A stretch of DNA of 44,718 nt, from contig JAPPOR010000180.1 of assembly GCA_028817905.1 (NCBI GenBank), positions 1 to 44,718 of the forward strand, read 5' to 3'. A model generated the notes under the pieces. It made no database searches and was not told where the DNA came from. It worked only from the letters and a program-made list of their open reading frames with translations. Source of the stretch: Myxococcales bacterium (GTDB lineage Bacteria > Myxococcota_A > Polyangia > Polyangiales > JAFGIB01). Positions 15,556-29,852 of this stretch are shown here, in pieces. Numbering within the stretch: position 1 is the first letter of the stretch; every line of letters starts with the position of its first letter. The translations under genes were made by a program, and so were the position numbers.

Positions 15556-17214
15556 TCAGTCCCAGGGGTCGAGGACCTCGGACTTGAGCCGATTTCCAGC
15601 CGGCCTGTCGGCCTTGGGCTGCTTGGCAGCGGGGGGGGCGCTGGACCGGGTACTGCGGGTGCTGGCGGTTCTCTTGCGCGAAGCCCGCTTCTTGAGCTTG
15701 GTCATTCGCACGGACATGGACTCGGGGCTCAGGGCGCGAACGAGGACGGACTTGTCCTGATAGCCCTCGCGCTTGAGCACCAGGCGGATGTTGTCGTCCG
15801 CCTCCGGTTTGAACAGGGCGAAGGGCGTCGACCCGACCAGATCGCCGTCGCGGTATACCTCAGCACCGGACGGCTTGCTCTGGAGCGTCATCTTCGCCCG
15901 CGGAGCATCCGGAGCATCCCCCGCGGCCTCCGGGGATGGCTCGCCTTTGTCGCCTGGCTGTGCGGTCTGTTCGGGAGCCTGTTCGCCCGTAGCTACGGGT
16001 GCGTCGGCTTCGAGCTCTTCGTGTTCTTTTTCGGCCGGCGACACGACGTTCGCTCCGACCTCACTCGTCTGTCCATCGGATTTCGGCTCGCCCGCGAGAG
16101 CCCATACCCCCGCTACGGCGGCGGCAGCGAGCACCAGGCCTCCCAGCAACAGCGGCAGCAAGGGTCGGCTGGGGACGCCAGCCGGCTGACCCACACCCAT
16201 CGTCATCCGCCCGGGTTCATCGTCGTCATCGAGCGTCAGCGTTCCCTGCGTACTCCCGGCGCTCTGACGGTCGACCGCCTCGACCACCGCGCGGGGTGTG
16301 GTGCCCCGTTCAATGGATTCCAAATCAGCGGCCAGCTCCGCCATGTTCTGGTAGCGCTGCTCCGCCTTTTTCGCGAGGCACTTGAGAATGACGGCTTCGA
16401 GCGCCACTGGAACGTCGGTCGGTGGCGGCAGATCGTGGGGCGGCACGGGCTTTTCGTACAGGTGCTTCGTGAGGATCCCCATCAGGTTGTCCGCGTCGAA
16501 CGGCACTTGCCCGGTTCCCATCTCGTACAGGATCACGCCGACGGCATAGATGTCGGTGCGATGATCCACGTTCGTACCCGCACACTGTTCCGGGGACATG
16601 TAGTGCGGAGTCCCGAACACCTGGCCCGCCTGCGTTAGCTTGGTGTTGCTGCCGCCGACCTTGGCGATCCCGAAGTCGAGTACCTTGACGAAATCGTCCG
16701 TTCCACCGCGCGGGATCAGCTGAACGTTGTCCGGCTTCATATCGCGGTGGACGATGCCCCGTTCGTGCGCAGCGCCCAGCGCCTTGCATAGCTGCTGTGC
16801 GATGTGAATCGTGCGCTCGGTGGACAAGCGGGTTTCCAGCAGTGCATCCGTGAGCGAACAACCCTCCAGGAACTCCATCACGAAGTAGGTGGAACCATCA
16901 GGAAGCACGCCGAAGTCACTGATGTCGATGATGTGCTGATTTCCGATCGCCGACGCGCTTTGCGCCTCCTGTCGAAAACGCGCGACGATCTCGTCGTTCT
17001 TGGACACCTCGGGCCGCAAGACCTTGATCGCCAACGGCTTGTTGAGAGCGGTGTGGGTTGCGCGATAGACGATGCCCATGCCGCCCTCGCCGAGCAGCGA
17101 TTCGATGCGGTAGCGCGCGTCGATGACCTGGCCGATCAGGGGATCGTCCGGCTGCTCTGGCGCACCGGCCTCGGCCGCGTGGTCCACCACCCCATTTCCG
17201 CCCTGCTGTGCCAT
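15556..17214 (-). CDS. membrane Ser/Thr protein kinase with C-terminal PEGA domain
   Basis: This is an eukaryotic-like (Hanks-type) kinase of 552 residues from the ATG at 17214 (MAQQGGNG); the frame extends upstream to 17271. The motifs are complete: glycine loop GEGGMGIVY (42-50), K64, catalytic HRDMKPDN (156-163), DFG (180-182), activation segment to SPE (207-209) and DIYAVGVILYEM. One membrane segment spans about 352-375. Outside the membrane are an acidic/Pro linker and a PEGA domain (about 455-525: SKPSGAEVYRDGDLVGSTPF), then a basic tail. PEGA domains are usually extracytoplasmic, so it may sense envelope state. It lies between scpB (120 bases) and the two-lipoprotein unit (45 bases). 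Confidence 0.95.
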   Translation of the reverse strand: MAQQGGNGVVDHAAEAGAPEQPDDPLIGQVIDARYRIESLLGEGGMGIVYRATHTALNKPLAIKVLRPEVSKNDEIVARFRQEAQSASAIGNQHIIDISDFGVLPDGSTYFVMEFLEGCSLTDALLETRLSTERTIHIAQQLCKALGAAHERGIVHRDMKPDNVQLIPRGGTDDFVKVLDFGIAKVGGSNTKLTQAGQVFGTPHYMSPEQCAGTNVDHRTDIYAVGVILYEMGTGQVPFDADNLMGILTKHLYEKPVPPHDLPPPTDVPVALEAVILKCLAKKAEQRYQNMAELAADLESIERGTTPRAVVEAVDRQSAGSTQGTLTLDDDDEPGRMTMGVGQPAGVPSRPLLPLLLGGLVLAAAAVAGVWALAGEPKSDGQTSEVGANVVSPAEKEHEELEADAPVATGEQAPEQTAQPGDKGEPSPEAAGDAPDAPRAKMTLQSKPSGAEVYRDGDLVGSTPFALFKPEADDNIRLVLKREGYQDKSVLVRALSPESMSVRMTKLKKRASRKRTASTRSTRSSAPPAAKQPKADRPAGNRLKSEVLDPWD

Positions 17215-17334
17215 GAACAAGCCAATCGTGGGCGACCAAGGCGCCCGGCGGCGAGGGCGGCTGAACCGCAACTCACCGGTTCCAATGATGTCCTTCGTGG
17301 TCGAGTCCGGTCAAGTCCGGGGGCGCCGACCTGT

Positions 17335-18384
17335 TCAGGTGGGAGTCCCGTCCCCCGTGTCCTCTGCCTCGCGGGGGGTGTCTTCTGGGCCGGTCTCCTG
17401 CTCTTCGGTCGGCTCCACCGACATGTCGTCCTCGGCCCCGGCGGGCTCCCGCGCGGCCGCGAAGTCTCCCCCTGTTTCCGCTGTTTCCCCGACCGTGGAG
17501 TCTTCCAGAGCGTTGGCATCGTCATCCCCGCGTGCGGACATCACATCTGACGTGTCTGCATCCGGGCCGGCATCGTCGGTAGAGCGTTCGGCGAGCTCGG
17601 CTTCGGCTTGCTCGACCGACTCCCCGGTCTTGCGCTTGAATAGGGTCCGGTTTTCCTCGGTCAGATCGGCGAACTCCTTCAGTGTAGGCAGATCTCTCAG
17701 GGTCTTGAGACCGAAAAACTCCAAGAAATACGGGGTCGTTCCATAGAGCATGGGCCGGCCCGCCTCGTCCTTGCGCCCGAGCATCTTGATGAGCCCCCGG
17801 TCGAGCAGCACCTTCACCGCGGAACCCGTGTCAACGCCTCGCACATCGTCGATCTCTGGGCGCGTGATCGGTTGGCGATACGACACCAGCGCCAGCGTTT
17901 CCAGCTGCGCGCGCGTCAGCCGGACGGGCTTCTGGGCCACCATTTCGCGCACAAACTCCGCGCAGGCGGGCGCGGACCGAAACTGATACCCCCCCCCCAC
18001 CTCAACGAGCTGGACCCCGCGGTCTGCATACTGGCTGATGAGTTCGGCCATCAGCGGCTTGACCTCGCTTGCTTTGAGTTTGACGATCTTTCCCAGCGCC
18101 TGGGCGGTCACAATTCGGTCGGATACAAACACGATGCTCTCGAGACCCCGGAGCAAGCGTTCGCGGCGGGTTTGCTCGGACTCGCCGTCCGCTTCGTCCT
18201 CGCCGCTTCCCGTCTGCGAAGCCCCGCCCAGCTCGCTCACGTCCGAGACCGCGGGCACCGCCCGCCCCCCGTCCTCGGCAGCGGGCTCGTTGGGGTCGTG
18301 GTCTTCTGGCTGCGCATCAGAAGCGCCTCCGGCGCCCGCCGCCTCGGGCAACTCCTCGGCGTGATCGGGTGTCTCGCTGGTCAT
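17335..18384 (-). CDS. scpB: segregation and condensation protein B
   Basis: ScpB is the winged-helix (kite) subunit that dimerises and binds ScpA in the SMC condensin complex. The conserved part, about residues 75-235, holds RLLRGLESIVFVSDRIVTAQ, the first winged helix, then LTRAQLETLALVSYRQPITRPEIDDVRGVDT and MLYGTTPYFLEFFGL. At 349 residues it is far longer than usual (about 200) owing to acidic, low-complexity extensions at both ends. Its ATG overlaps the scpA stop (ATGA), so the pair is coupled. A run of ten G in the coding strand (17989-17998) encodes the end of V and three Gly, a possible slippage site. Confidence 0.95.
   Translation of the reverse strand: MTSETPDHAEELPEAAGAGGASDAQPEDHDPNEPAAEDGGRAVPAVSDVSELGGASQTGSGEDEADGESEQTRRERLLRGLESIVFVSDRIVTAQALGKIVKLKASEVKPLMAELISQYADRGVQLVEVGGGYQFRSAPACAEFVREMVAQKPVRLTRAQLETLALVSYRQPITRPEIDDVRGVDTGSAVKVLLDRGLIKMLGRKDEAGRPMLYGTTPYFLEFFGLKTLRDLPTLKEFADLTEENRTLFKRKTGESVEQAEAELAERSTDDAGPDADTSDVMSARGDDDANALEDSTVGETAETGGDFAAAREPAGAEDDMSVEPTEEQETGPEDTPREAEDTGDGTPT
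17989..17998 (-). repeat. homopolymer G10 tract inside scpB
   Basis: Ten consecutive C on the plus strand give G10 in the scpB reading frame (GTG-GGG-GGG-GGG-TAT). It is the longest mononucleotide run I noticed in the window; gains or losses of one base would truncate ScpB before its second winged helix. Confidence 0.85.
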
Positions 18385-19370
18385 TGACTCTCTCCGTCAG
18401 GGCCCGCGCCCGGGTGTTCCGGATCGAGCGCCTGCTCCGCAGGCGTCGGCTGGGTCTCATCGAAGCCCGCGCGGGGTGCGTTCTCCAAAGGGTCGGACGC
18501 GTGGAAGTCGCGCCCTTGGCTGGCTTCGGGTTCGGGAAAGCTCGACGGGTCCGAGCCCACGGAAGTGGGACCGTCGGGAGGTACACTTGGGCTCTCCGGG
18601 TCCAGCAGTGCAGAGCGCACGTGAATCGGCCCGCTGAGTTCGGCCTGGTACAGGCGGGTCACGTGCATCTTGGTCATTTCCAGGATCGCTAGAAACGTGA
18701 CCACCACGTCGTAGCGCGTGCGATCGTCTTCGAACAGCTCCTCAAATGTGCATTCGCGGCGCTCGCGCAGGAACTCCGTGATCTGGGTCATGCGCTCCTG
18801 GATCGAGATGCGTTCGGTGGTGACCTCGAGGGCCAGCTTCCCGCGCACGCGCTTCAAGATTCCCTGGAACGCGTCCAGCAACTTGAACAGGCTGATGTCG
18901 GCAAGGGGCGCTTCGCCCTGAACAGATGGCACAGGCATGCCGCGGCCAAAGACGTCACGACCGGCGACCGAGCGCTCGCCGAGCTGGTCGGCAGCATGCT
19001 TGTACTTCTGATATTCGAGCAGGCGCTTGATCAGCTCCGCCCGCGGATCCTCCATGTACGGGTCATCTTCCTCCCCATCGTCTTCGTCCGGGCTTGGCGG
19101 GAGCAGCATCTTGCTCTTGATGTGGGCCAAGGTGGCGGCCATCAGCAGGTACTCGCTCGCCACGTCGAGGTCCAGCTCCCGCATCAAACCCAGGTACTCG
19201 AGGTACCGTTCGGTCACGAACGCGATCGGCAGATCCAGCAGGTCCAGCTCGTGCTTGCGGGCGAGGTGCAGCAGCAGGTCGAGCGGTCCCTCAAAGGTGG
19301 GTAGCTCGACACGGAACGTGGTGTCCTGGGGCAAGTTGGTGGTGTCCACGCGTGGGGTGTCCCGGGGCAT
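18381..19370 (-). CDS. scpA: segregation and condensation protein A
   Basis: ScpA is the kleisin that bridges the SMC heads. The start chosen is the ATG at 19370 (MPRDTPRVDTTNLPQ); the frame continues to 19688 but that part crosses the promoter. The N-terminal kleisin motif FEGPLDLLLHLARKHELDLLDLPI is complete, followed by EYLLMAATLAHIKSKMLLP and a central acidic loop. The C-terminal part has the TFEELFEDDRTRYDVVVTFLAILEMTKMHVTRLYQAE winged helix. An extra Pro/Ser/Asp tail of about 75 residues follows. The product is 329 residues, with the stop overlapping scpB. It is transcribed from the promoter at 19468-19496, divergently from the coiled-coil gene at 19700. Confidence 0.96.
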   Translation of the reverse strand: MPRDTPRVDTTNLPQDTTFRVELPTFEGPLDLLLHLARKHELDLLDLPIAFVTERYLEYLGLMRELDLDVASEYLLMAATLAHIKSKMLLPPSPDEDDGEEDDPYMEDPRAELIKRLLEYQKYKHAADQLGERSVAGRDVFGRGMPVPSVQGEAPLADISLFKLLDAFQGILKRVRGKLALEVTTERISIQERMTQITEFLRERRECTFEELFEDDRTRYDVVVTFLAILEMTKMHVTRLYQAELSGPIHVRSALLDPESPSVPPDGPTSVGSDPSSFPEPEASQGRDFHASDPLENAPRAGFDETQPTPAEQALDPEHPGAGPDGESQ

Positions 19371-19467
19371 GGGAGCCGGGGCCGGAGGGTACCAGATAGC
19401 CCGGCCCCTTTCCGCGAGCAGGTGGGGTGGCCAGGGGCCAAAGTGGGTTCTCGAAATTGTGGGACAG

Positions 19468-19496
19468 GCCCTACTAGTGCGGTCGATCACTGTCAA
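19468..19496 (-). promoter_or_regulatory. sigma70-type promoter of scpAB
   Basis: On the minus strand TTGACA (19491-19496), a 17-base spacer and TAGGGC (19468-19473) lie about 100 bases upstream of the scpA start. A perfect inverted repeat GGATTC-AG-GAATCC lies just upstream at 19507-19520 and could be an operator. Confidence 0.7.
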
Positions 19497-19506
19497 TGAA
19501 GCGGCT

Positions 19507-19520
19507 GGATTCAGGAATCC
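19507..19520. promoter_or_regulatory. inverted repeat upstream of scpAB promoter (candidate operator)
   Basis: GGATTC-AG-GAATCC is a perfect two-fold symmetric site in a relatively A+T-rich stretch between the divergent scpAB and coiled-coil genes. It lies about 15 bases upstream of the scpAB -35. No regulator is identified. Confidence 0.4.
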
Positions 19521-19604
19521 ATATGGAAAGCGTTCAATATAGCAGCGGCCACCTTCCGTAGGCCTTCTACCCGCATGTCCGTGTATCCGCCCCTGCGGAC
19601 CACA

Positions 19605-19634
19605 TTGCCTATCCACCTGGACCGGAGATATAGT
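19605..19634 (+). promoter_or_regulatory. candidate promoter of the zinc-ribbon coiled-coil gene
   Basis: TTGCCT (19605-19610), an 18-base spacer and TATAGT (19629-19634) lie about 65 bases before the ATG at 19700. The -10 is good and the -35 partial. With the scpAB promoter this accounts for most of the divergent 329-base intergenic region (19371-19699). Confidence 0.5.
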
Positions 19635-19699
19635 AATTTCAGTCACGACGTCTTCTTGTAGTTTTACCGCAAGAGATTCTCCTGGCACCTACGTCTCCG

Positions 19700-21136
19700 A
19701 TGGCTACGAGTTTGTGTCCCAACTGCGGCCAAGCGGCCGACGACCGCGCGCCCGCGTGCGGCGTTTGCGGAGCCCAACTACATGCCCAAGCGCCCGTACA
19801 GGCTGCGGCCAGCTGGGGTGGGCTTCAGTGCCCCGCGGGCGCCGCGCCCGCGGCCGCTTCCGCTGACAGGACCTCGACGAGTCGCGTGTTGGCCCACCGC
19901 TCCTCCGCACCCGACGCGGGGTGCGAAGGCGCTCCTCCGGCCACAACCACCGATTCCATGTCCCACGCCCAGTGGGGCATGGTCAACGATCCGCTGGCCG
20001 AGGACCTGAGTGCGCAACCCAGCCTCGAGTTGGCTTCGGTGCCCGTTCCCGGCCGCAAGAGTCGCCCGAGGCAAGCCAAGGTTGAGGAAGGCGGCGAAGC
20101 AAACCAGGAAGCTGAGGCCAAGCCCAAGAGACCCAGCCGCGCGCAGCGCCGGCGGAGCAAGATCCTGGAAATCGCGGGCTATGGCCCTCGCCCCACCTCG
20201 GTATTGTACGTAGTGCCGTACTTTGTCCGCGTGTTCCTGCGTCGACGGGTGGTCGCCGAGGAACTCGCCGAACTTGCCGTAGCCCGCAAGAAGGCCGAGT
20301 CCCAGCTGGCCGACGCTCTGGGAGAGGTGGGTGGAGCCCTATACGTCCGTCGGGCGGATCCCCGCCTCGCGGCGCTGGGCCGGCATGCTGCGATCGTGAC
20401 CGAAGCTGAGCGCCAAGTCGATGCGGGCCACAAACACAGCCAGCTGGCGCAACAGGATGCGAGCTCGGCCATGAGCGAAATCGCCCGCCGCCTGGAGGCC
20501 GCTCAAAACGCTGCCGCACCTGTGCGCGAACGGGGCATTAAGCTGCAGGCGAAGCTTCACCAGCTCGAACAGCACGTCGCAGCGTTGGCGCAGACGGTGC
20601 AGAGCTGTGAGCAACGCATTGCTCGAATCCAGAGCAAGAAGGTGGCGGAACCCCAAGACGTCGAGGTGCTTCAGGGCCTGCACGCGGAGCGCGCGGAGGC
20701 CCACGGGCATGTGCAATCGACCCAGCTAACGATGCACCCGATCAAGGAGGAGCTGCAGACCGTACTGGTCAAGGTCAAGAAACACCAGCAGATCATTGCC
20801 GAGCTTGAGGCAGAGGCAGAGCGCCATGGCAAGATCATGGAGCGCGATCAGGCGCGCCACGCGCGCCAGGCGGGAGATGCCCGCAACGCCCTGCAAACGG
20901 CCCTGCAGTCGCTGGCTCGGGCTGCCATTGAGCAGGGCTTCGGCCGGGCCGTCCCACGGCTGGTGGAGGCGGTCGAGCGGCGAGAAAAGGACGTGGCACG
21001 CAAGCGAGAGCGTGAGGCGGTCCACCGCGAGGCCCTGTCGAGCTACGATGAGTCGGCCTATCGCCGCGGCATGTTGGGTCTTGTGGGAGGCACCGGCGCG
21101 GTCTTCTTGACGACCGTGTTGCTGATCGCGCTCTAG
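19700..21136 (+). CDS. zinc-ribbon, coiled-coil, C-terminally membrane-anchored protein
   Basis: I do not recognise a named family. The 478-residue protein starts with a zinc ribbon (CPNCG at 6-10 and CGVCG at 20-24), then a Pro/Ala/Glu linker to about residue 150 and a short hydrophobic patch (SVLYVVPYFVRVFL, about 172-185). Long helices rich in Ala, Gln, Glu, Lys and Arg run from about 190 to 445, clearly coiled coil. The last 20 residues (MLGLVGGTGAVFLTTVLLIAL) form one membrane helix. The architecture suggests a membrane-tethered scaffold. It is transcribed divergently from scpAB. A role in chromosome or envelope organisation is inference from position only. Confidence 0.8.
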   Translation: MATSLCPNCGQAADDRAPACGVCGAQLHAQAPVQAAASWGGLQCPAGAAPAAASADRTSTSRVLAHRSSAPDAGCEGAPPATTTDSMSHAQWGMVNDPLAEDLSAQPSLELASVPVPGRKSRPRQAKVEEGGEANQEAEAKPKRPSRAQRRRSKILEIAGYGPRPTSVLYVVPYFVRVFLRRRVVAEELAELAVARKKAESQLADALGEVGGALYVRRADPRLAALGRHAAIVTEAERQVDAGHKHSQLAQQDASSAMSEIARRLEAAQNAAAPVRERGIKLQAKLHQLEQHVAALAQTVQSCEQRIARIQSKKVAEPQDVEVLQGLHAERAEAHGHVQSTQLTMHPIKEELQTVLVKVKKHQQIIAELEAEAERHGKIMERDQARHARQAGDARNALQTALQSLARAAIEQGFGRAVPRLVEAVERREKDVARKREREAVHREALSSYDESAYRRGMLGLVGGTGAVFLTTVLLIAL

Positions 21137-21237: not shown

Positions 21238-21699
21238 CTACAACTCGCCCACGACCTCGAGCACCTTGTCGACGTGTCCCTTCACGCGCACCTTCGAAAA
21301 GACCTTAGCCACCTTTCCGTCAGGTCCGATGACCACGGTAGTGCGGATGATTCCCATGCTCTTCTTCCCGTACAGGTTCTTCTCTCCCCAGGCGCCGTAC
21401 TTCTCAAGCATCGTGCCATCCGGGTCACTCAACAGCGGGAACTTCAGCTTGTACTTGTCTCGGAACTTGCAGTGTGACTCGATGCTGTCCTTGCTAACGC
21501 CAACGACCGCCGCCCCGGCCTTCTGGAGCTTGCTCAGAGCTTTGTTGAAGTCGTTTGCTTCGGTCGTGCACCCCGGCGTGTTGTCGCGCGGGTAGAAATA
21601 GACGACCAGCGTCTGACCTTTGAAGTCCTTGAGCGCGACCTTGCCGCCCTCCGATGACGGTAGGCTGAAGGCGGGTGCGCGCTTGCCTTCCTCGAGCAT
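21238..21699 (-). CDS. bcp: thioredoxin-dependent thiol peroxidase (Bcp/PrxQ)
   Basis: This peroxiredoxin of the AhpC/TSA superfamily reduces hydroperoxides in the cytoplasm. It has 153 residues with the peroxidatic cysteine C44 in PRDNTPGCTTEANDF. The resolving cysteine five residues later in E. coli Bcp is Asn49 here. A cysteine at C77 (SIESHCKFRDKY) lies where the other PrxQ subtype (resolving Cys in helix alpha3) has it, so a C44-C77 disulfide is predicted. The ATG at 21699 is preceded by GAGGAG. The leader holds two mutually exclusive hairpins (21722-21749). It is a single gene, divergent from the phosphoesterase with repeat R1 between them. Confidence 0.95.
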   Translation of the reverse strand: MLEEGKRAPAFSLPSSEGGKVALKDFKGQTLVVYFYPRDNTPGCTTEANDFNKALSKLQKAGAAVVGVSKDSIESHCKFRDKYKLKFPLLSDPDGTMLEKYGAWGEKNLYGKKSMGIIRTTVVIGPDGKVAKVFSKVRVKGHVDKVLEVVGEL

Positions 21700-21800: not shown

Positions 21801-21959
21801 CTAGCCCGGATCATTCATGACTTCGACGGTGCCTCGCTTGTTCTTCGACTTCACAGGGCCTCCGCCGACCTAGAAAGTACGGGGAGCGTTCCCTTCGGCC
21901 GTCGAAAGTCCTGTGAAGCTGAACCCCTGCGCGATCCGGCGCCGATGTCATGACCGGAC
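21801..21959 (-). repeat. GCTAGC-bounded palindromic element, copy R1
   Basis: It begins CTAGCCCGGATCATTCATGA. The arm ending CTTCGACTTCACAGGG is answered, inverted, by CCTGTGAAGCTGAACCCC then TGCGCGATCCGG. Both arms match those of R3 and R4 but in reverse order, so R1 is inverted relative to them. The centre (minus strand GGGAACGCTCCCCGTACTTTC) follows the family core. It lies in the divergent region between bcp and the phosphoesterase. The rest of this region (21700-22096) holds only the bcp leader. Confidence 0.8.
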
Positions 21960-22096
21960 TTTCCGTGCTTCCGTCTGTGGTCAGTTTGAGAGAACGTGCT
22001 TGCGAGTCTGCGATCTGCCGGCCGCGCGGCGAATGGGCTCGAGGAATTGGCCGCCAGCGCCCAACGGCGGCGTCGCGGATCGGCTATGCTGACCGG

Positions 22097-22765
22097 GTGG
22101 CGGACCGAACGATCGTCGTAGGGGACGTGCACGGTTGTTCAAGCGAGTTGGATGCCCTCTATCGGCTCTGTGAGGTCGGACCCGGCGACGAGCTCGTCTT
22201 CGTGGGGGACCTGGTTGCCAAGGGCCCGGACAGCGCGGGGGTACTCGCCCGAATGCGCGCGTGGAACGCTCGCTCGGTACGCGGCAACCATGATGCTGCT
22301 GCGGTCGCTTGTCGGCTCCTGCCCGAGCATCAGGTGCCGGTACACCGGCGTGCTCTGGTGGCGAGCTTGTCAGACCAGGACCTCGCCCTGCTGGCCGGGT
22401 TGCCGCTATGGCTTCGGCTCTCGCGGGGGTTAGTCGTACATGCGGGCATCGTGCCGGGGCTCGCTCTCGAGCGGCAAGACCCGTACTTGCTGATGAACAT
22501 GCGAACGCTCGACGAGCAGGGCCGCGGAAGCCGGTCGGCAGCAACCGGGCAACTGTGGGGCGCCGCCTACCCTGGGCCGGAATTGATTCTGTTCGGACAC
22601 CACGCCCGCGCCGGCTTGCAGCTGCACCCGTTCGCGTTGGGCCTCGATACCGGATGCGTATACGGCGGCCGCCTGACGGCGTGTATTCTCCCTGAGCGTC
22701 GGATCGTGTCGGTGCCGGCCAGACGAGCCTACACTGCCACGTCGGACGCTCGGAGCCGAAGATGA
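22097..22765 (+). CDS. metallophosphoesterase (PrpE/ApaH-like)
   Basis: This calcineurin-like phosphoesterase resembles small Ser/Thr phosphatases and symmetrical Ap4A hydrolases. The chosen start is GTG at 22097 (VADRTIVVGDVHGC), because the conserved fold begins at once; the open frame from 21950 crosses repeat R1. Metal-site motifs are complete: GDVHGC, GDLVAKGPDS, RGNHD, VVHAG and FGHH. The product has 222 residues. A TATGCT hexamer ends only six bases before the GTG, which would fit a leaderless transcript, but no good -35 is seen. Its stop overlaps the ATG of the Rieske gene (ATGA), so the two are coupled. The substrate is unknown. Confidence 0.9.
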   Translation: MADRTIVVGDVHGCSSELDALYRLCEVGPGDELVFVGDLVAKGPDSAGVLARMRAWNARSVRGNHDAAAVACRLLPEHQVPVHRRALVASLSDQDLALLAGLPLWLRLSRGLVVHAGIVPGLALERQDPYLLMNMRTLDEQGRGSRSAATGQLWGAAYPGPELILFGHHARAGLQLHPFALGLDTGCVYGGRLTACILPERRIVSVPARRAYTATSDARSRR

Positions 22766-23127
22766 CGGCGGCCCATGCACCCAAGGGCTGGTTGAATGCT
22801 TGCGACACCCGTGCGCTCGTTTTGGGGCGGGTCCTCGAGATTCCTTTGCCGAGCGAAACCGATCGGCCGCTCACCGCGCTCTTGGTGCGTGACGGCAAGG
22901 GTTGCCCACGGGCCTATCTCAACCTTTGTCAGCACCTGCCGATTCCGCTAGATGCTGGAGGCGGGCGCTTCCTGTCGGCTGACGGATCCCACTTGGTGTG
23001 CCAGACACACGGGGCGGCCTATCGACTATCCGATGGTGTGTGTGAGCGCGGGCCCTGTCTCGGCAAGGTGCTGGTCGCGCTGCTCGTACAGGAGCGCGCA
23101 GGGCGTCTCTTCATCAAGTGCCCGTAA
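22762..23127 (+). CDS. Rieske [2Fe-2S] protein
   Basis: A small stand-alone Rieske ferredoxin-like protein, 121 residues. The cluster ligands are C56-x-H58 (NLCQHLPIPLD) and C80-x2-H83 (VCQTHGAAY), followed by RLSDGVCERGPC as in soluble Rieske proteins of this group. There is no signal peptide or membrane anchor, so it is probably cytoplasmic. It starts inside the stop of the metallophosphoesterase gene and its 3' end overlaps the convergent map gene by 14 bases. An electron-transfer or redox-sensing role is expected; its partner is unknown. Confidence 0.9.
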   Translation: MTAAHAPKGWLNACDTRALVLGRVLEIPLPSETDRPLTALLVRDGKGCPRAYLNLCQHLPIPLDAGGGRFLSADGSHLVCQTHGAAYRLSDGVCERGPCLGKVLVALLVQERAGRLFIKCP

Positions 23128-23962
23128 GCGACGCGGGACATGATTTGGGGCCGAGTTTGGCGAACGGGCGATCTTCGCTCTGGCGCAGCAGAGCCTTGCG
23201 CGCTGTCAGTACCTCGGAGCCAGCTCCCGTCACCAGGATCGTATGCTCAAACTGGGCTGACAGCGACCCGTCAGCTGTACGTACCGTCCATTCGTCCTGG
23301 TCGACCTTGCAGGCCCAATGCCCGGCATTGATCATGGGTTCGATCGTGAACACCATGCCGCCCTTGAGACGCTTGCCACTGCCTGCGGCGCCGTAGTGGG
23401 GGATCTGCGGCGCGGTGTGGAACTCACGACCAATGCCATGGCCCACATAGTCGCGCACGACCCCACAACCCTGGGCTTCGGCGAACTCCTGAATGGCCGC
23501 GCCGATATCGCCGATGCGAGCGCCGGCCTTCACCACGGAAATGCCGAGTTCCAAGCACTGGCGCGAGACTTCGGTCACATGGCGAGCTTCCTCGGAGACC
23601 TCGCCAACATAGAACGTCGCACTTGTATCTCCGTGATATCCGTCGGTCTTGGGAAGGTACGACGTCACGTCGACGTTGACGATGTCGCCCTCCTTGAGCT
23701 TCTGCGGACCCGGAATTCCGTGGCACACGACCTCGTTGACGCTGGTGCACACGGACTTCGGAAAACCGTTGTAGTTGAGCGGTGAGGGCCAGGCACCGTG
23801 CTCGACCGTGTAGTCGTGGACCAGCTTGTCGATTTCATCGGTGCGCATCCCCGGACGTAGGTGCTCGCCCACCATGAGCAGCGTATCGGCCGCCAACTGG
23901 CAGGCCCTGCGCATGCCTTCAAGCATGCGCGCATTCATGATTTGGACGCCGCTCACCACCAC
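23114..23962 (-). CDS. map: methionine aminopeptidase type I
   Basis: Map removes the initiator methionine. The metal ligands and core motifs are present: NYNGFPKSVCTSVNEVVCHGIP, the two Asp in EGDIVNVDVTSYLPKTDGYHGDTSATF, the His in YVGHGIGREFHTAPQIPHY, Glu in MVFTIEPMIN and the last Glu in AQFEHTILVT. The frame starts with GTG codons at 23962, while ATG at 23938 (MNARMLEGMRRAC) fits the family length better. Either is possible; the wider one is given. A C-terminal tail of about 30 residues (LLRQSEDRPFAKLGPK) is extra. The gene runs convergent with, and slightly into, the Rieske gene. Confidence 0.96.
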   Translation of the reverse strand: MVVSGVQIMNARMLEGMRRACQLAADTLLMVGEHLRPGMRTDEIDKLVHDYTVEHGAWPSPLNYNGFPKSVCTSVNEVVCHGIPGPQKLKEGDIVNVDVTSYLPKTDGYHGDTSATFYVGEVSEEARHVTEVSRQCLELGISVVKAGARIGDIGAAIQEFAEAQGCGVVRDYVGHGIGREFHTAPQIPHYGAAGSGKRLKGGMVFTIEPMINAGHWACKVDQDEWTVRTADGSLSAQFEHTILVTGAGSEVLTARKALLRQSEDRPFAKLGPKSCPASLTGT

Positions 23963-25012: not shown

Positions 25013-25107
25013 GTCCGGCCTCGGGGACAAAAAAAGCGGCGACAATTGCCCTCGGGGGCTCGTCAGCTTGAGCTGGCGTTCTGCGCTTGCTACTCCTTTT
25101 TGCCCAA

Positions 25108-25875
25108 ATGGCTCGGGTAGTCGCGATCTCCAATCAGAAGGGTGGTGTCGGAAAGACAACCACCGCTGTGAACCTGGCTGCGAGTCTGGCAGTCGCGGAG
25201 CAGCGCGTGCTGCTGCTCGACGTGGACCCACAGGGCAACGCGACCAGCGGCGTCGGGTCGCGGCGCGATCGGGAAAACTCCCTGTACCCGGTGCTGTTCC
25301 ATGAGCGCCCCCTGCCGGAGGTCATCCAGTCGACGGACCTGCCCTTTCTCGACGTGGTACCTGCGTGCCGCGACCTCTCGGGAGTCGAGGTGGAACTCGT
25401 CGATGAGGAAGACCGGGTCTGTCGCCTCCGCGATGCGCTGGAAACGGTCAAACCTCGGTACGACTTTATCTTCGTCGACTGCCCCCCCTCTCTGGGGATT
25501 CTGACGCTCAACGCGCTAGTGGCCGCCGATGTGGTCCTGGTCCCGATGCAGGCGGAGTACTATGCGCTCGAGGGATTGTCTGACCTGACGGACACAATCG
25601 AGCGCGTACGCGGCTCGCTCAATCCGCAGCTTCGCCTACACGGCGTGCTCTTGACCATGTTCGATGCCCGCAACAATCTCGCCAACCAGGTGGCTGATGA
25701 GGTGCGGAAGCATTTTCACGTTTTTGACACCGTCATACCCCGCAACATTCGGTTGGCGGAGGCGCCGTCCCACGGCCGACCCGTGATTCTCTATGACGCC
25801 ACATCACGGGGCTCCCATGGCTACTTGAGCCTGGCACGCGAAATCTTGGATCGGCCCCCGGAAGCGGTGGCCTAG
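25108..25875 (+). CDS. parA: chromosome partitioning ATPase ParA (Soj)
   Basis: ParA is a Walker-type ATPase that binds nucleoid DNA and moves ParB-bound origins. From the ATG at 25108 the protein reads MARVVAISNQKGGVGKTTTA, with the deviant Walker A lysine at the start of KGGVGKTT (residues 11-18). Further motifs are LLLDVDPQGNATSG, DFIFVDCPPSLGILTLNAL and VLVPMQAEYYALEGL. Its 255 residues and lack of an N-terminal HTH make it the small chromosomal (Soj) type. parB follows after one base. No parS sequence (TGTTCCACGTGGAACA type) was found in the window. Confidence 0.97.
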   Translation: MARVVAISNQKGGVGKTTTAVNLAASLAVAEQRVLLLDVDPQGNATSGVGSRRDRENSLYPVLFHERPLPEVIQSTDLPFLDVVPACRDLSGVEVELVDEEDRVCRLRDALETVKPRYDFIFVDCPPSLGILTLNALVAADVVLVPMQAEYYALEGLSDLTDTIERVRGSLNPQLRLHGVLLTMFDARNNLANQVADEVRKHFHVFDTVIPRNIRLAEAPSHGRPVILYDATSRGSHGYLSLAREILDRPPEAVA

Positions 25876-25876
25876 G

Positions 25877-26791
25877 ATGGCCGAGACCCGCAAATCCCGG
25901 CGGGCGCTGGGCCGAGGGCTGGACGCTCTGCTGCCCAGTACCCCGAAGGGCGGGGAAGGCAAGACAGGCGCGGCGCTGTCTGCGAGTGCGGCGCCCAGGA
26001 GGCGCAGCGAGACGGGCTTTCTGGCCAAGGTCGAGGAGCTCCATCCCAACCGCGGCCAGCCGCGCACACGCTTCGACGATGAGGCCCTGGGGGAGCTTTC
26101 GGATTCGATCCGCGAGCTCGGCATGCTCGAGCCGATCCTGGTACGCCGCCGGAGCGAAGGTGGCTACGAAATCGTGGCCGGCGAGCGTCGCTGGCGGGCA
26201 GCCCAACGGGCCGGGCTGTTCGAGGTGCCGGTCTTCGTTCGTGAGCTGACTGAGCACAAGGCCTTCGAAGCGGCCTTGGTTGAGAACCTGCAGCGCGAGG
26301 ACCTGAACCCACTCGAAACCGCCAGGGCCTTTCAACGCCTGATCGACGAACACGACCGTTCGCAGGAGGCGGTCGCCAAGCTGATCGGCAAGGATCGCTC
26401 GACCGTCGCCAATGCGCTGCGGCTGCTGAAGCTCCCGGACCCGATTATGGACCTCATTGAGGCGCGCGAGCTGAGCGAGGGGCATGGGCGTGCGTTGCTC
26501 AGTGCCGGGGACCGCACGGCGATGGTCGAGCTGGCCCGCAAGGCGGTAGCCCAGGACTGGAGCGTACGCGAAACGGAGCGACGGGCGCGGGCCGCGGCGC
26601 GCGAGGGCCCCGGAAAGGCAGGCGCCGCGGATCAGAAATCGCCTAACGTGCGAGATCTGGAATCGCGCCTAAGCAAGTCGATGGGTACACGCGTGACCGT
26701 GGCCGATCGCAAAGGCAAGGGTCACCTGAAGGTAGCCTTCTCGAGCTACGACGAACTCGATCGCCTGCTCGAAATCATGACACGGGGCTAG
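25877..26791 (+). CDS. parB: chromosome partitioning protein ParB (Spo0J)
   Basis: ParB is the CTP-dependent clamp that loads at parS and spreads. The 304-residue protein has a basic N-terminus for ParA contact ([15 protein letters not shown]), the CTP-binding domain with QPRTRFD and [29 protein letters not shown], the [23 protein letters not shown] and a C-terminal dimerisation domain ([18 protein letters not shown]). It is coupled to parA by one base. Its TAG stop lies in the GCTAGC end of repeat R3, so the element abuts the gene exactly. Confidence 0.97.
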
Positions 26792-28325: not shown

Positions 28326-29852
28326 ATGACGCGAAGCGGTTCGAACAGCCCTGGCAGTGGCTGGTCGCGAGGCCACATGCTCATCGCTGCGCTTGCGACG
28401 GTCATGTGGGCGGGCAGCTGCTCGGAATCGGACGGCAGCAGAACGGAAGGCACCGCCGAACGTTCCGCCCGGGCCGCGACGAACGCCCGTGGCCAAGATG
28501 GCCCCGGGTCAAGCGCTTCGGGAACGAATTTCGGCAACCCGACAGAACAGTCTGAAGCCGCTCCGATGCCAGCAGACAATGGCGGGACCAGGGGCGCCCC
28601 CCCTCAGCCGGGGCCAGCCGAAGACTGCGGCAAAGACGTGCAACGCGCCATGCGAGTCGAGGTAGACATGTACATCATGCTCGACCGCAGTGGCTCGATG
28701 CTTGCGGAAACGGATAGTGGCGAAACGAAATGGGATGCGATCCGAGACGCACTGACTACGTTCGTACAGGACCCCGAGTCAAGTGGGCTGGGCGTGGGTC
28801 TGCAGTACTTTCCACTGGGCGTTGAGGGCGTACCCGAGAGCTGTGTTTCCGATACCGAGTGCGGTGCACGGGGCGGGCCATGTACCAACCGGGCATGTCT
28901 GCCGGGGCCATTCACGCAGGAGTTCATGTTGATACCTTGCTTGAATGACAACGAGTGCCCCACGAGTTCGCGCGGCTGCGGTCCTATCGGTGTCTGCGAG
29001 GAGGACGAGAGTTACGCGTGCTACAACTTCGACCAGGGGTGCGGTCGGATGGGCGCCTGTTTGCCCCTCGCCGGCGAGTGCCTGGGTTTCGCGACCTGTG
29101 AACCGTCAGCCTATGAGACTCCAGCGGTCGAAATCGGCGTGTTGCCGGAAAACGGCAGCAACCTCGTGGATTCACTGATGAACGCGAATCCAACGGGCCT
29201 CACGCCGACCGGGGTCGCGTTGGTAGGGGCCATTGCACAGGCACGTGCCCGCGCCCTTGCGAACCCCACGCACCGCGTGATCGCGCTGCTAGCCACGGAC
29301 GGCTTGCCAACCGACTGCGTGCCTCCGGCGGTGACGACCCTCGATGAGGCGGTGGATGCGGTGGCGCTGGAGGCATCCGACGGAGTGTCCATGACGCCTT
29401 CGGTTCCGACCTACGTCATCGGTGTGTTTTCCCCCGAGGAGCCCGAGGCAATGCCCAAGCTCGATCAGATCGCGCAGGCTGGCGGGACCGACCGCGCGTT
29501 CATCGTCGATGCGACGGCCGACGTCTCCCAGCAGTTCCTGGACGTACTGGCTCAAATCCGGGCGGGTTCCCTCGCGTGCGAGTTTCAATTGCCGACCCCT
29601 CCGGAGGGCGAGGAACTCGATCCCATGTTGGTCAACGTGGACCTGACGCGCGCCAGTGGAGCTACCGAGACCCTGGCATTCGTAGGAGACGCGAGCGGTT
29701 GCGGGCAGGTCGAGCTGGAGTGGTACTACGAGGCCGGCGCTGGCGGTGAGATGACGATCAACACATGCGCATCAACCTGCCAACAGCTCCAGGCGGAGAA
29801 AGACGCCACCGTGCAGATCCGGATCGGCTGCCCGACCCGCGGGCCCCAGTAG
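28326..29852 (+). CDS. VWA-domain lipoprotein with Cys-rich insert
   Basis: The start chosen is ATG at 28326 (MTRSGSNSPG), with GAAAGGG eight bases upstream. An internal signal (MLIAALATVMWAGSC, lipid cysteine C32) is followed by a low-complexity linker to about residue 100. A von Willebrand A fold begins at MYIMLDRSGSM with MIDAS residues D120, S122 and S124. It is interrupted at about 173-258 by an insert with 13 cysteines in short C-x(n)-C modules, then resumes (LTPTGVALVGAI, HRVIALLATDGLPTDC). The secreted 508-residue protein probably binds a ligand or partner at the cell surface. Such proteins are frequent in Myxococcota, which is part of my lineage inference. It is a single gene, convergent with the PAP2 gene. 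Confidence 0.88.
   Translation: MTRSGSNSPGSGWSRGHMLIAALATVMWAGSCSESDGSRTEGTAERSARAATNARGQDGPGSSASGTNFGNPTEQSEAAPMPADNGGTRGAPPQPGPAEDCGKDVQRAMRVEVDMYIMLDRSGSMLAETDSGETKWDAIRDALTTFVQDPESSGLGVGLQYFPLGVEGVPESCVSDTECGARGGPCTNRACLPGPFTQEFMLIPCLNDNECPTSSRGCGPIGVCEEDESYACYNFDQGCGRMGACLPLAGECLGFATCEPSAYETPAVEIGVLPENGSNLVDSLMNANPTGLTPTGVALVGAIAQARARALANPTHRVIALLATDGLPTDCVPPAVTTLDEAVDAVALEASDGVSMTPSVPTYVIGVFSPEEPEAMPKLDQIAQAGGTDRAFIVDATADVSQQFLDVLAQIRAGSLACEFQLPTPPEGEELDPMLVNVDLTRASGATETLAFVGDASGCGQVELEWYYEAGAGGEMTINTCASTCQQLQAEKDATVQIRIGCPTRGPQ

Follow-up and report, generated by a model that had tools for sequence, protein, structure and literature searches.

Does a gene that stands back to back with scpBA, and whose product carries a membrane anchor, belong to the apparatus of chromosome segregation? 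We addressed this question for the protein P0001, which is encoded in a 44,718-nucleotide stretch of a Myxococcales genome (hereafter, the window). The original prediction had proposed a membrane-tethered scaffold, and suggested from its position that it could link condensin or the nucleoid to the membrane.

Anatomy of the window protein

The zinc ribbon, the coiled coil and the single C-terminal membrane helix that had been read from the sequence are each present (Table 1). The ribbon has all four cysteines (C6xxC9-x10-C20xxC23) and scores under the curated Pfam cut-offs (20.0 of 27 bits for PF13248 and 19.2 of 25 for PF13240); residues 1-30 were modelled by AlphaFold2 with a pLDDT of 79-88. 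Helices of the coil cover residues 168-446, and a lone hydrophobic helix lies at residues 451-477 of 478, with no other stretch above the hydropathy threshold, so that hydropathy and AlphaFold2 both describe a tail anchor, whose insertion and topology are predicted. The range originally assigned to the gene started at 19371, the first intergenic base past scpA, and thus takes in 329 bp of intergenic DNA upstream of the ORF; frame 1 read from this base contains stops.

The AlphaFold2 model of P0001 (pLDDT 83.9, pTM 0.63) has helices at residues 168-216, 221-312, 318-411, 419-446 and 451-477, with a pLDDT of about 97 in the coiled-coil helices. That of L101, a family member from a different clade (pLDDT 81.0, pTM 0.61), has them at 163-208, 220-308, 319-413, 421-449 and 453-479. 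In both models a linker of low confidence is followed by a short helix, by long helices flanking a turn at about 313-317, and by the membrane helix. In P0001, the helix breaks at 217-220 and 412-418 are equidistant from the turn and may form the elbow of a hairpin, the pairing of the helices being judged from their positions. Together with the alignment described below, the two models are consistent with the proposed membrane-tethered scaffold.

Pfam and NCBIfam gave no family model above its curated cut-off for P0001 and no match to an ATPase family, and the Pfam scan found no protein kinase domain. A reading as a defence system was dropped because neither P0001 nor L101 had a match in PADLOC, where the fused kinases of distant relatives match kinase models.

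Table 1. Features in the window, and tip-split homologues with positions in their own loci (L numbers).
Feature	Position	Strand	Evidence
scpB	17335..18384	-	PF04079, 2.6e-50
scpA	18381..19370	-	PF02616, 1.3e-37
Intergenic region common to P0001 gene and scpA, 329 bp	19371..19699	.	weak conservation, 47% mean column identity, five f1 sequences
Tail-anchored coiled-coil hairpin protein, whole ORF, 478 aa (predicted fold)	19700..21136	+	ORF, homologues, profile
Zinc ribbon CxxC-x10-CxxC, residues 6-27	19715..19780	+	PF13248/PF13240 below cut-off; AlphaFold2 pLDDT 79-88
Low-confidence, presumably disordered linker, residues 32-145, with PSLEL segment at 107-111	19793..20134	+	block pLDDT 38-52 to residue 140
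Most conserved motif A-x-Y-G-x-x-P...Y-x-x-R-V-x-x-R-x-R-x-L, residues 159-185	20174..20254	+	42-row alignment
Ascending hairpin helices, residues 168-216 and 221-312 (predicted)	20201..20635	+	AlphaFold2; same in second family member
Hairpin tip, residues 313-317; homologous genes split here (predicted)	20636..20650	+	AlphaFold2 and split homologues
Descending helices, residues 318-411 and 419-446 (predicted)	20651..21037	+	AlphaFold2
C-terminal membrane helix, residues 451-477 (predicted)	21050..21130	+	hydropathy, AlphaFold2; G457 in 98% of 42 rows
bcp-like thiol peroxidase, block neighbour	21238..21699	-	PF00578, 1.5e-41
Metallophosphatase, block neighbour	21950..22765	+	PF00149, 1.9e-11
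Rieske protein, block neighbour	22762..23127	+	PF00355, 1.2e-9
M24 metallopeptidase, block neighbour	23114..23962	-	PF00557, 1e-53
parA and parB	25087..26791	+	PF13614, PF02195, PF17762
Tip-split family gene, two overlapping or near-adjacent ORFs, kinase first in second ORF	L227 7607-10254		
Tip-split family gene, kinase first in second ORF	L238 300-2561		
Tip-split family gene, kinase first in second ORF	L241 3458-5898		
Tip-split family gene, kinase first in second ORF	L242 48-2722		
Tip-split family gene, kinase first in second ORF	L243 2710-4494		

Extent and conservation of the family

A search with P0001 at E <= 0.001 gave relatives in 17 of 56 genomes, one of which is the source of the window, and a 17-row profile matched 91 of 183 Polyangiales genomes at the same threshold, 67 of them at E <= 1e-15. 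These 67, counted from the profile-search tables, are our strong-match set; the linkage count does not include the weaker matches (E over 1e-15, 24 of the 91 genomes), among which are some genuine short or split forms, and about 16 genomes added by a later search at E <= 1e-10 lie outside the linkage survey. Across the phylum, strong matches were confined to Polyangiales and three more genomes of its class (G312, G351 and G390), whose ORFs show a ribbon, a coil and a hydrophobic C-terminus. Matches outside the class are weak and partial, and we took them as chance coiled-coil or ribbon matches, a reading that would extend to G229 (E 7.9e-14) and G273 (7.5e-11).

In a 42-row alignment, from which the fragment L097 was left out, as it was from the trees, the most conserved residues were P145, P165, Y174, V178, R181, L at 185, A445 and G457, most of them in the foot of the rod; P165 is kept in 98% of rows, Y174 in 100%, and V178 and R181 in 95% each. 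Position 185 is L in the family and V in the window copy. Outside family f1 the tip has a consensus of its own (R at 302, I at 305, E at 306 and R at 308, in 74-86% of the 42 rows), which the window copy lacks: E at 306 occurs in 86% of rows, and the window copy has R. The ribbon is not universal, occurring in 16 of the 42 members. For the other 41 rows, scans reported as E-values only name ribbon and coiled-coil models.

One could argue that P0001 is an ordinary, fast-evolving coiled-coil membrane protein, kept by chance and without a conserved role: near relatives are only about 30% identical, whereas ScpA keeps 60-68%, and profile searches found no family member in many Polyangiales genomes. 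We consider this unlikely, since foot residues retained in 95-100% of 42 divergent members, the symmetry of the hairpin and the coupled split genes described below point to selection. We recognised no paper that describes the family among those listed by literature searches, and a term search of PMC3087755 gave no match. We conclude that the family is real and undescribed: a kind of membrane-tethered rod that occurs in Polyangiales and in a few other genomes of the class, without a curated Pfam or NCBIfam match.

Linkage to scpBA

Pfam confirmed ScpA, ScpB, ParA and ParB. The P0001 gene diverges from scpA, 329 bp away, across a shared intergenic region, and parA starts 3.95 kb beyond its stop, in line with the parAB distance of about 4 kb given by the original prediction. 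The protein is also more than a chance ORF, as homologues of the same layout occur in many related genomes. One explanation of the position would be a condensin or nucleoid tether, in which the rod joins SMC-ScpAB or ParB-bound origins to the membrane.

To examine the linkage we counted by hand, from the profile and ScpA tables and from neighbourhood scans, how the gene lies in the 67 strong-match genomes. It stands divergently beside scpA in 16, which span four families (G000, G001, G003, G005, G006; G008, G048; G014; G041, G053, G062, G063, G066, G067, G068, G083), is cut by a contig end in two (G027 and G040), and is unlinked in 49, 39 of them by scanning 6-19 kb around the gene and 10 by separate contigs or because no scpA was found. 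Within the window's clade, 16 of 18 decidable genomes are linked. On the tree, all 16 fall in one half, which also contains G002 and G009, both unlinked, and two second copies; none of the 21 rows of the other half is linked, and one of them is a second copy in G001. The dividing branch has support of 94/88, just short of the starred level. Linkage is clustered, with four label changes versus 12.9 in shuffles. Such clustering across four families, and the presence of parAB in the same block in f1, speak for a condensin tether. The family as a whole, however, lies mostly away from scpAB, so that the conserved association with condensin genes that would mark an SMC-ScpAB accessory was not found: the linkage holds within the window's clade.

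Viewed from the other side, ScpA was found in 165 of 183 genomes, most of which lack a strong family match, and among 80 ScpA loci with named contigs a family member stood beside scpA in only four (L141, L142, L143 and L157, from uncultured Myxococcales, Myxococcota or Deltaproteobacteria MAGs), although some of the others lie so close to a contig end that the gene beside scpA may be missing. Three genomes with 95-99% stated completeness (G046, G086 and G026) have a family member and no ScpA match, for which assembly gaps are possible. In G158 and G175 (Sorangium cellulosum So0157-2), a gene for a 784-aa Ser/Thr kinase diverges from scpA (L132 2643-4994 and L133 3192-5543), and by eye its N-terminus resembles a zinc ribbon.

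The linked genes form a block, glyS-glyQ-scpB-scpA on one side of the family gene and bcp-metallophosphatase-Rieske-M24-parAB on the other, parts of which recur in each linked family; in f1, glyQS were not called next to scpB. Five genomes in which no family member was found retain scpBA and, as a minimum, bcp and metallophosphatase/Rieske genes of the block: G017 and G032 keep scpBA, a cysteine-rich gene (c8), bcp and the metallophosphatase/Rieske pair; in G010 and G028 scpA adjoins bcp; and G007 keeps scpBA and other parts. G015 keeps parts of the block with a weak family match (3e-4), and in G002 scpBA lies near parAB while the family gene is on another contig. Conversely, four linked loci (in f3, f9 and one locus of f5) have genes between scpA and the family gene, two in L084 and L087 (c47 and c34), one in L085 (c34) and one unclustered ORF in L093, and a shared promoter region is therefore not the rule. 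Five aligned f1 intergenic regions likewise showed no convincing conserved element, and the shared-promoter reading was dropped. The thiol peroxidase gene bcp, too, stays in the block in most linked loci. In f3, f5 and f9, the family gene and bcp are separated by a cysteine-rich, lipoprotein-like gene with a PF04885 (Stig1) match (L084 10403-11506; homologues at 14 further loci).

Neighbourhoods in the other clade follow no single theme (SDR, folE, DUF2203, MlaE, DUF507 or kinase-trpF-Crp genes), and the segregation genes seen there were limited to one parA-like ORF each in L107 and L110 and, in L236, a parA-like stretch of 51 residues. A search of the 44.7-kb window for parS gave a single match with three mismatches, at 29010, where 0.96 would be expected by chance; a nucleoid link through a nearby parS was accordingly dropped.

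Because the block persists without the family gene in several genomes, and because genes intervene in some linked loci, the place of the P0001 gene beside scpBA is probably a matter of inherited gene order and not of function. The proposed link from condensin or nucleoid to the membrane is thus not supported. A condensin tether could also appeal to the resemblance of the hairpin to SMC arm segments, but this likeness is generic, as chemoreceptors, myosin, tropomyosin and further proteins score alike. We rejected the tether as the main reading after the synteny survey, and regard it as very unlikely.

Split genes, kinase fusions and arm length

Distant homologues suggest signalling instead. In eight genomes of a single family, f12, the gene is split at the predicted tip, and in six of them (G124, G046, G155, G118, G154 and G109) the second ORF opens with a Ser/Thr protein kinase domain, after which come the descending arm and the membrane helix as far as the contig reaches; in G019 and G125 the split is at the same place without a kinase. 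Pfam scored the kinase over its cut-off in five tip-split partners and one N-terminal fusion (L249); the sixth tip-split kinase, in L259 of G109, was recognised by eye in the translation of a gene truncated at a contig end.

In seven split genes, the match of the first half ends at model positions 243-258, and that of the second half begins at 260-285 in five, at 240 in L238 and at 234 in L243. Four of the seven (L227, L241, L229 and L223) have clean breaks at 256-258/260-264, corresponding to P0001 residues 312-314/317-321, the predicted tip; breaks in L238, L242 and L243 are less exact. The second start codon overlaps the first stop in six of the seven (offset -1), L238 starts 6 nt after the stop, and the eighth gene, L259, has the overlap TGATG. 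In short forms from other f12 genomes, both arms lack corresponding stretches (breaks 152/361, 141/371, 143/371, 143/380, 233/285 and 233/282), centred at 256-262 compared with a tip at about 261; L247 shows no such matched loss. The splits, the codon overlaps and the matched arm losses are support for an antiparallel hairpin that does not depend on AlphaFold2.

At least three copies occur in G124: the tip-split form with a kinase, the N-terminal kinase fusion (L249 2953-5055) and a whole form with a ribbon (L248 2313-5060). In a tree that left out L243 and L259 (cut by contig ends), L245, L247, L251, L252 and L260, six split rows cluster with L249 and its sister (support 99/99). The split state requires two changes on this tree, and one change in 50% of bootstrap trees, so the split forms may go back to one fission event.

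Kinase domains are also denser near family genes, with 17 in 436 kb within 3 kb versus 6 in 540 kb at 3-9 kb, yet this enrichment is weak because the near kinases come mostly from two conserved blocks, f1 and f8. The kinase gene at 15556-17271 of the window, beyond scpB and 2.5 kb from the P0001 gene, was not counted as evidence, since it belongs to the same inherited block in f1. At four f8 loci (L100, L104, L105 and L106), a kinase match lies 115-224 bp upstream on the opposite strand, with a second 1.2-1.3 kb away. All tip-kinase forms are from f12, distant from the window's clade, and no family member examined from that clade has a kinase.

A structural spacer or tether without any kinase role, such as a golgin-like rod that organises the envelope or a pole and captures a partner at its tip, would account for a long rod with a membrane foot, for the conserved foot motif and for the tip conserved outside f1; it has a precedent in golgins, which PMC4707255 describes as C-terminally anchored rods. 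Beyond the elbow, however, the arms vary between about 95 residues per side and hardly any, which means that a fixed reach cannot be important in every member, and the kinase fusions would need another explanation. We hold this reading to be possible, though rather unlikely.

Proposed function

We propose that P0001 is a cytoplasmic, tail-anchored protein of an undescribed family, seen so far only in Polyangiales and its class. On sequence and structure prediction, its C-terminal helix would lie in the inner membrane, two long helices would extend outward and return, forming an antiparallel coiled-coil hairpin of about 20 nm by helix length, and a flexible linker would bear the optional zinc ribbon. 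We infer the cytoplasmic side because a kinase needs ATP. Sequence comparison shows that the parts are exchangeable: some members have a ribbon and others none, a kinase can be N-terminal or sit at the tip, the arms can be long or almost missing, and the protein is encoded by one gene or by two coupled half-genes. The most likely task of such a protein would be to keep regulatory modules at a defined distance from the membrane, as an anchored spacer or scaffold, and the fusions in a distant subclade make Hanks-type Ser/Thr-kinase signalling the most plausible setting. The window copy, with a ribbon and no kinase, may then be an adaptor subunit, a kinase link that is drawn from distant relatives, as its own clade shows no fusion. 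A tail-anchored hairpin rod acting as a modular spacer or scaffold, probably in kinase signalling and in an inherited position, is our best explanation overall, held tentatively and at slightly below even confidence.

A bolder version, which we offer as speculative and think doubtful, sees the family as Polyangia-specific, membrane-footed 'yardsticks'. Hairpin length would evolve by matched arm loss, a cut at the tip would yield two translationally coupled proteins that reassemble, a Ser/Thr kinase could sit at the far end and a zinc ribbon near the foot, and the window protein would be a kinase-less adaptor form. If right, Polyangia would have a modular membrane rod, whose reach and tip module evolved independently, and a natural test system for the effect of membrane distance on kinase signalling, while the coupled split hairpin would show how one protein becomes an obligate heterodimer. 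The case also shows that divergence from scpAB, even when conserved, does not have to indicate a condensin role.

Comparison with known systems

Long intramolecular antiparallel coiled coils are common to P0001 and to the arms of SMC and Rad50 (NCBIfam SMC models; PDB 5xg2, 5nnv and 1l8d). SMC complexes consist of SMC, ScpA and ScpB, and SMC has an extended antiparallel coiled coil, as stated in PMC7333895. Weak SMC_prok_B matches occur in 19 of 42 family members, and 94 residues of the Rad50 hook hairpin align at 2.6 A with a Z of 11.9, which is in the range common for long helices. P0001 differs in having a membrane anchor and no detected ATPase head, and its best SMC model score, 16.7 of the 567 bits needed, does not place it in the SMC family. 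Foldseek and VIA-align returned many unrelated long helical proteins at similar scores, and a PDB sequence search returned myosin, tropomyosin and SMC, with no specific relative in either case.

C4-type zinc-ribbon hairpin proteins (CT398, 4ilo; HP0958, 3na7; MSMEG_4306, 5y05) also combine a helical hairpin with a zinc ribbon, and CT398 aligns with P0001 at Z 12.1 and an rmsd of 5.9 A over 173 residues. In the CT398/HP0958 family the ribbon is C-terminal, after the hairpin. P0001, in contrast, has its sole ribbon at residues 6-27, optional in its family, and an added membrane helix, and no family of this type was among the four Pfam families reported at E <= 0.1, which argues against membership.

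Hanks-type Ser/Thr kinases of myxobacteria are related through the kinase domain fused to six distant family members (and to a seventh, L259, by eye). Their usual layout is kinase, transmembrane helix and external sensor, whereas in this family a cytoplasmic rod lacking any external domain would carry the kinase at its tip or its N-terminus.

Golgins are eukaryotic and show no sequence relation, but according to PMC4707255 they have a C-terminal membrane anchor and a rod projecting into the cytoplasm, as predicted here. By concept, a bacterial analogue of a golgin-like tether comes nearest, in analogy and not in membership.
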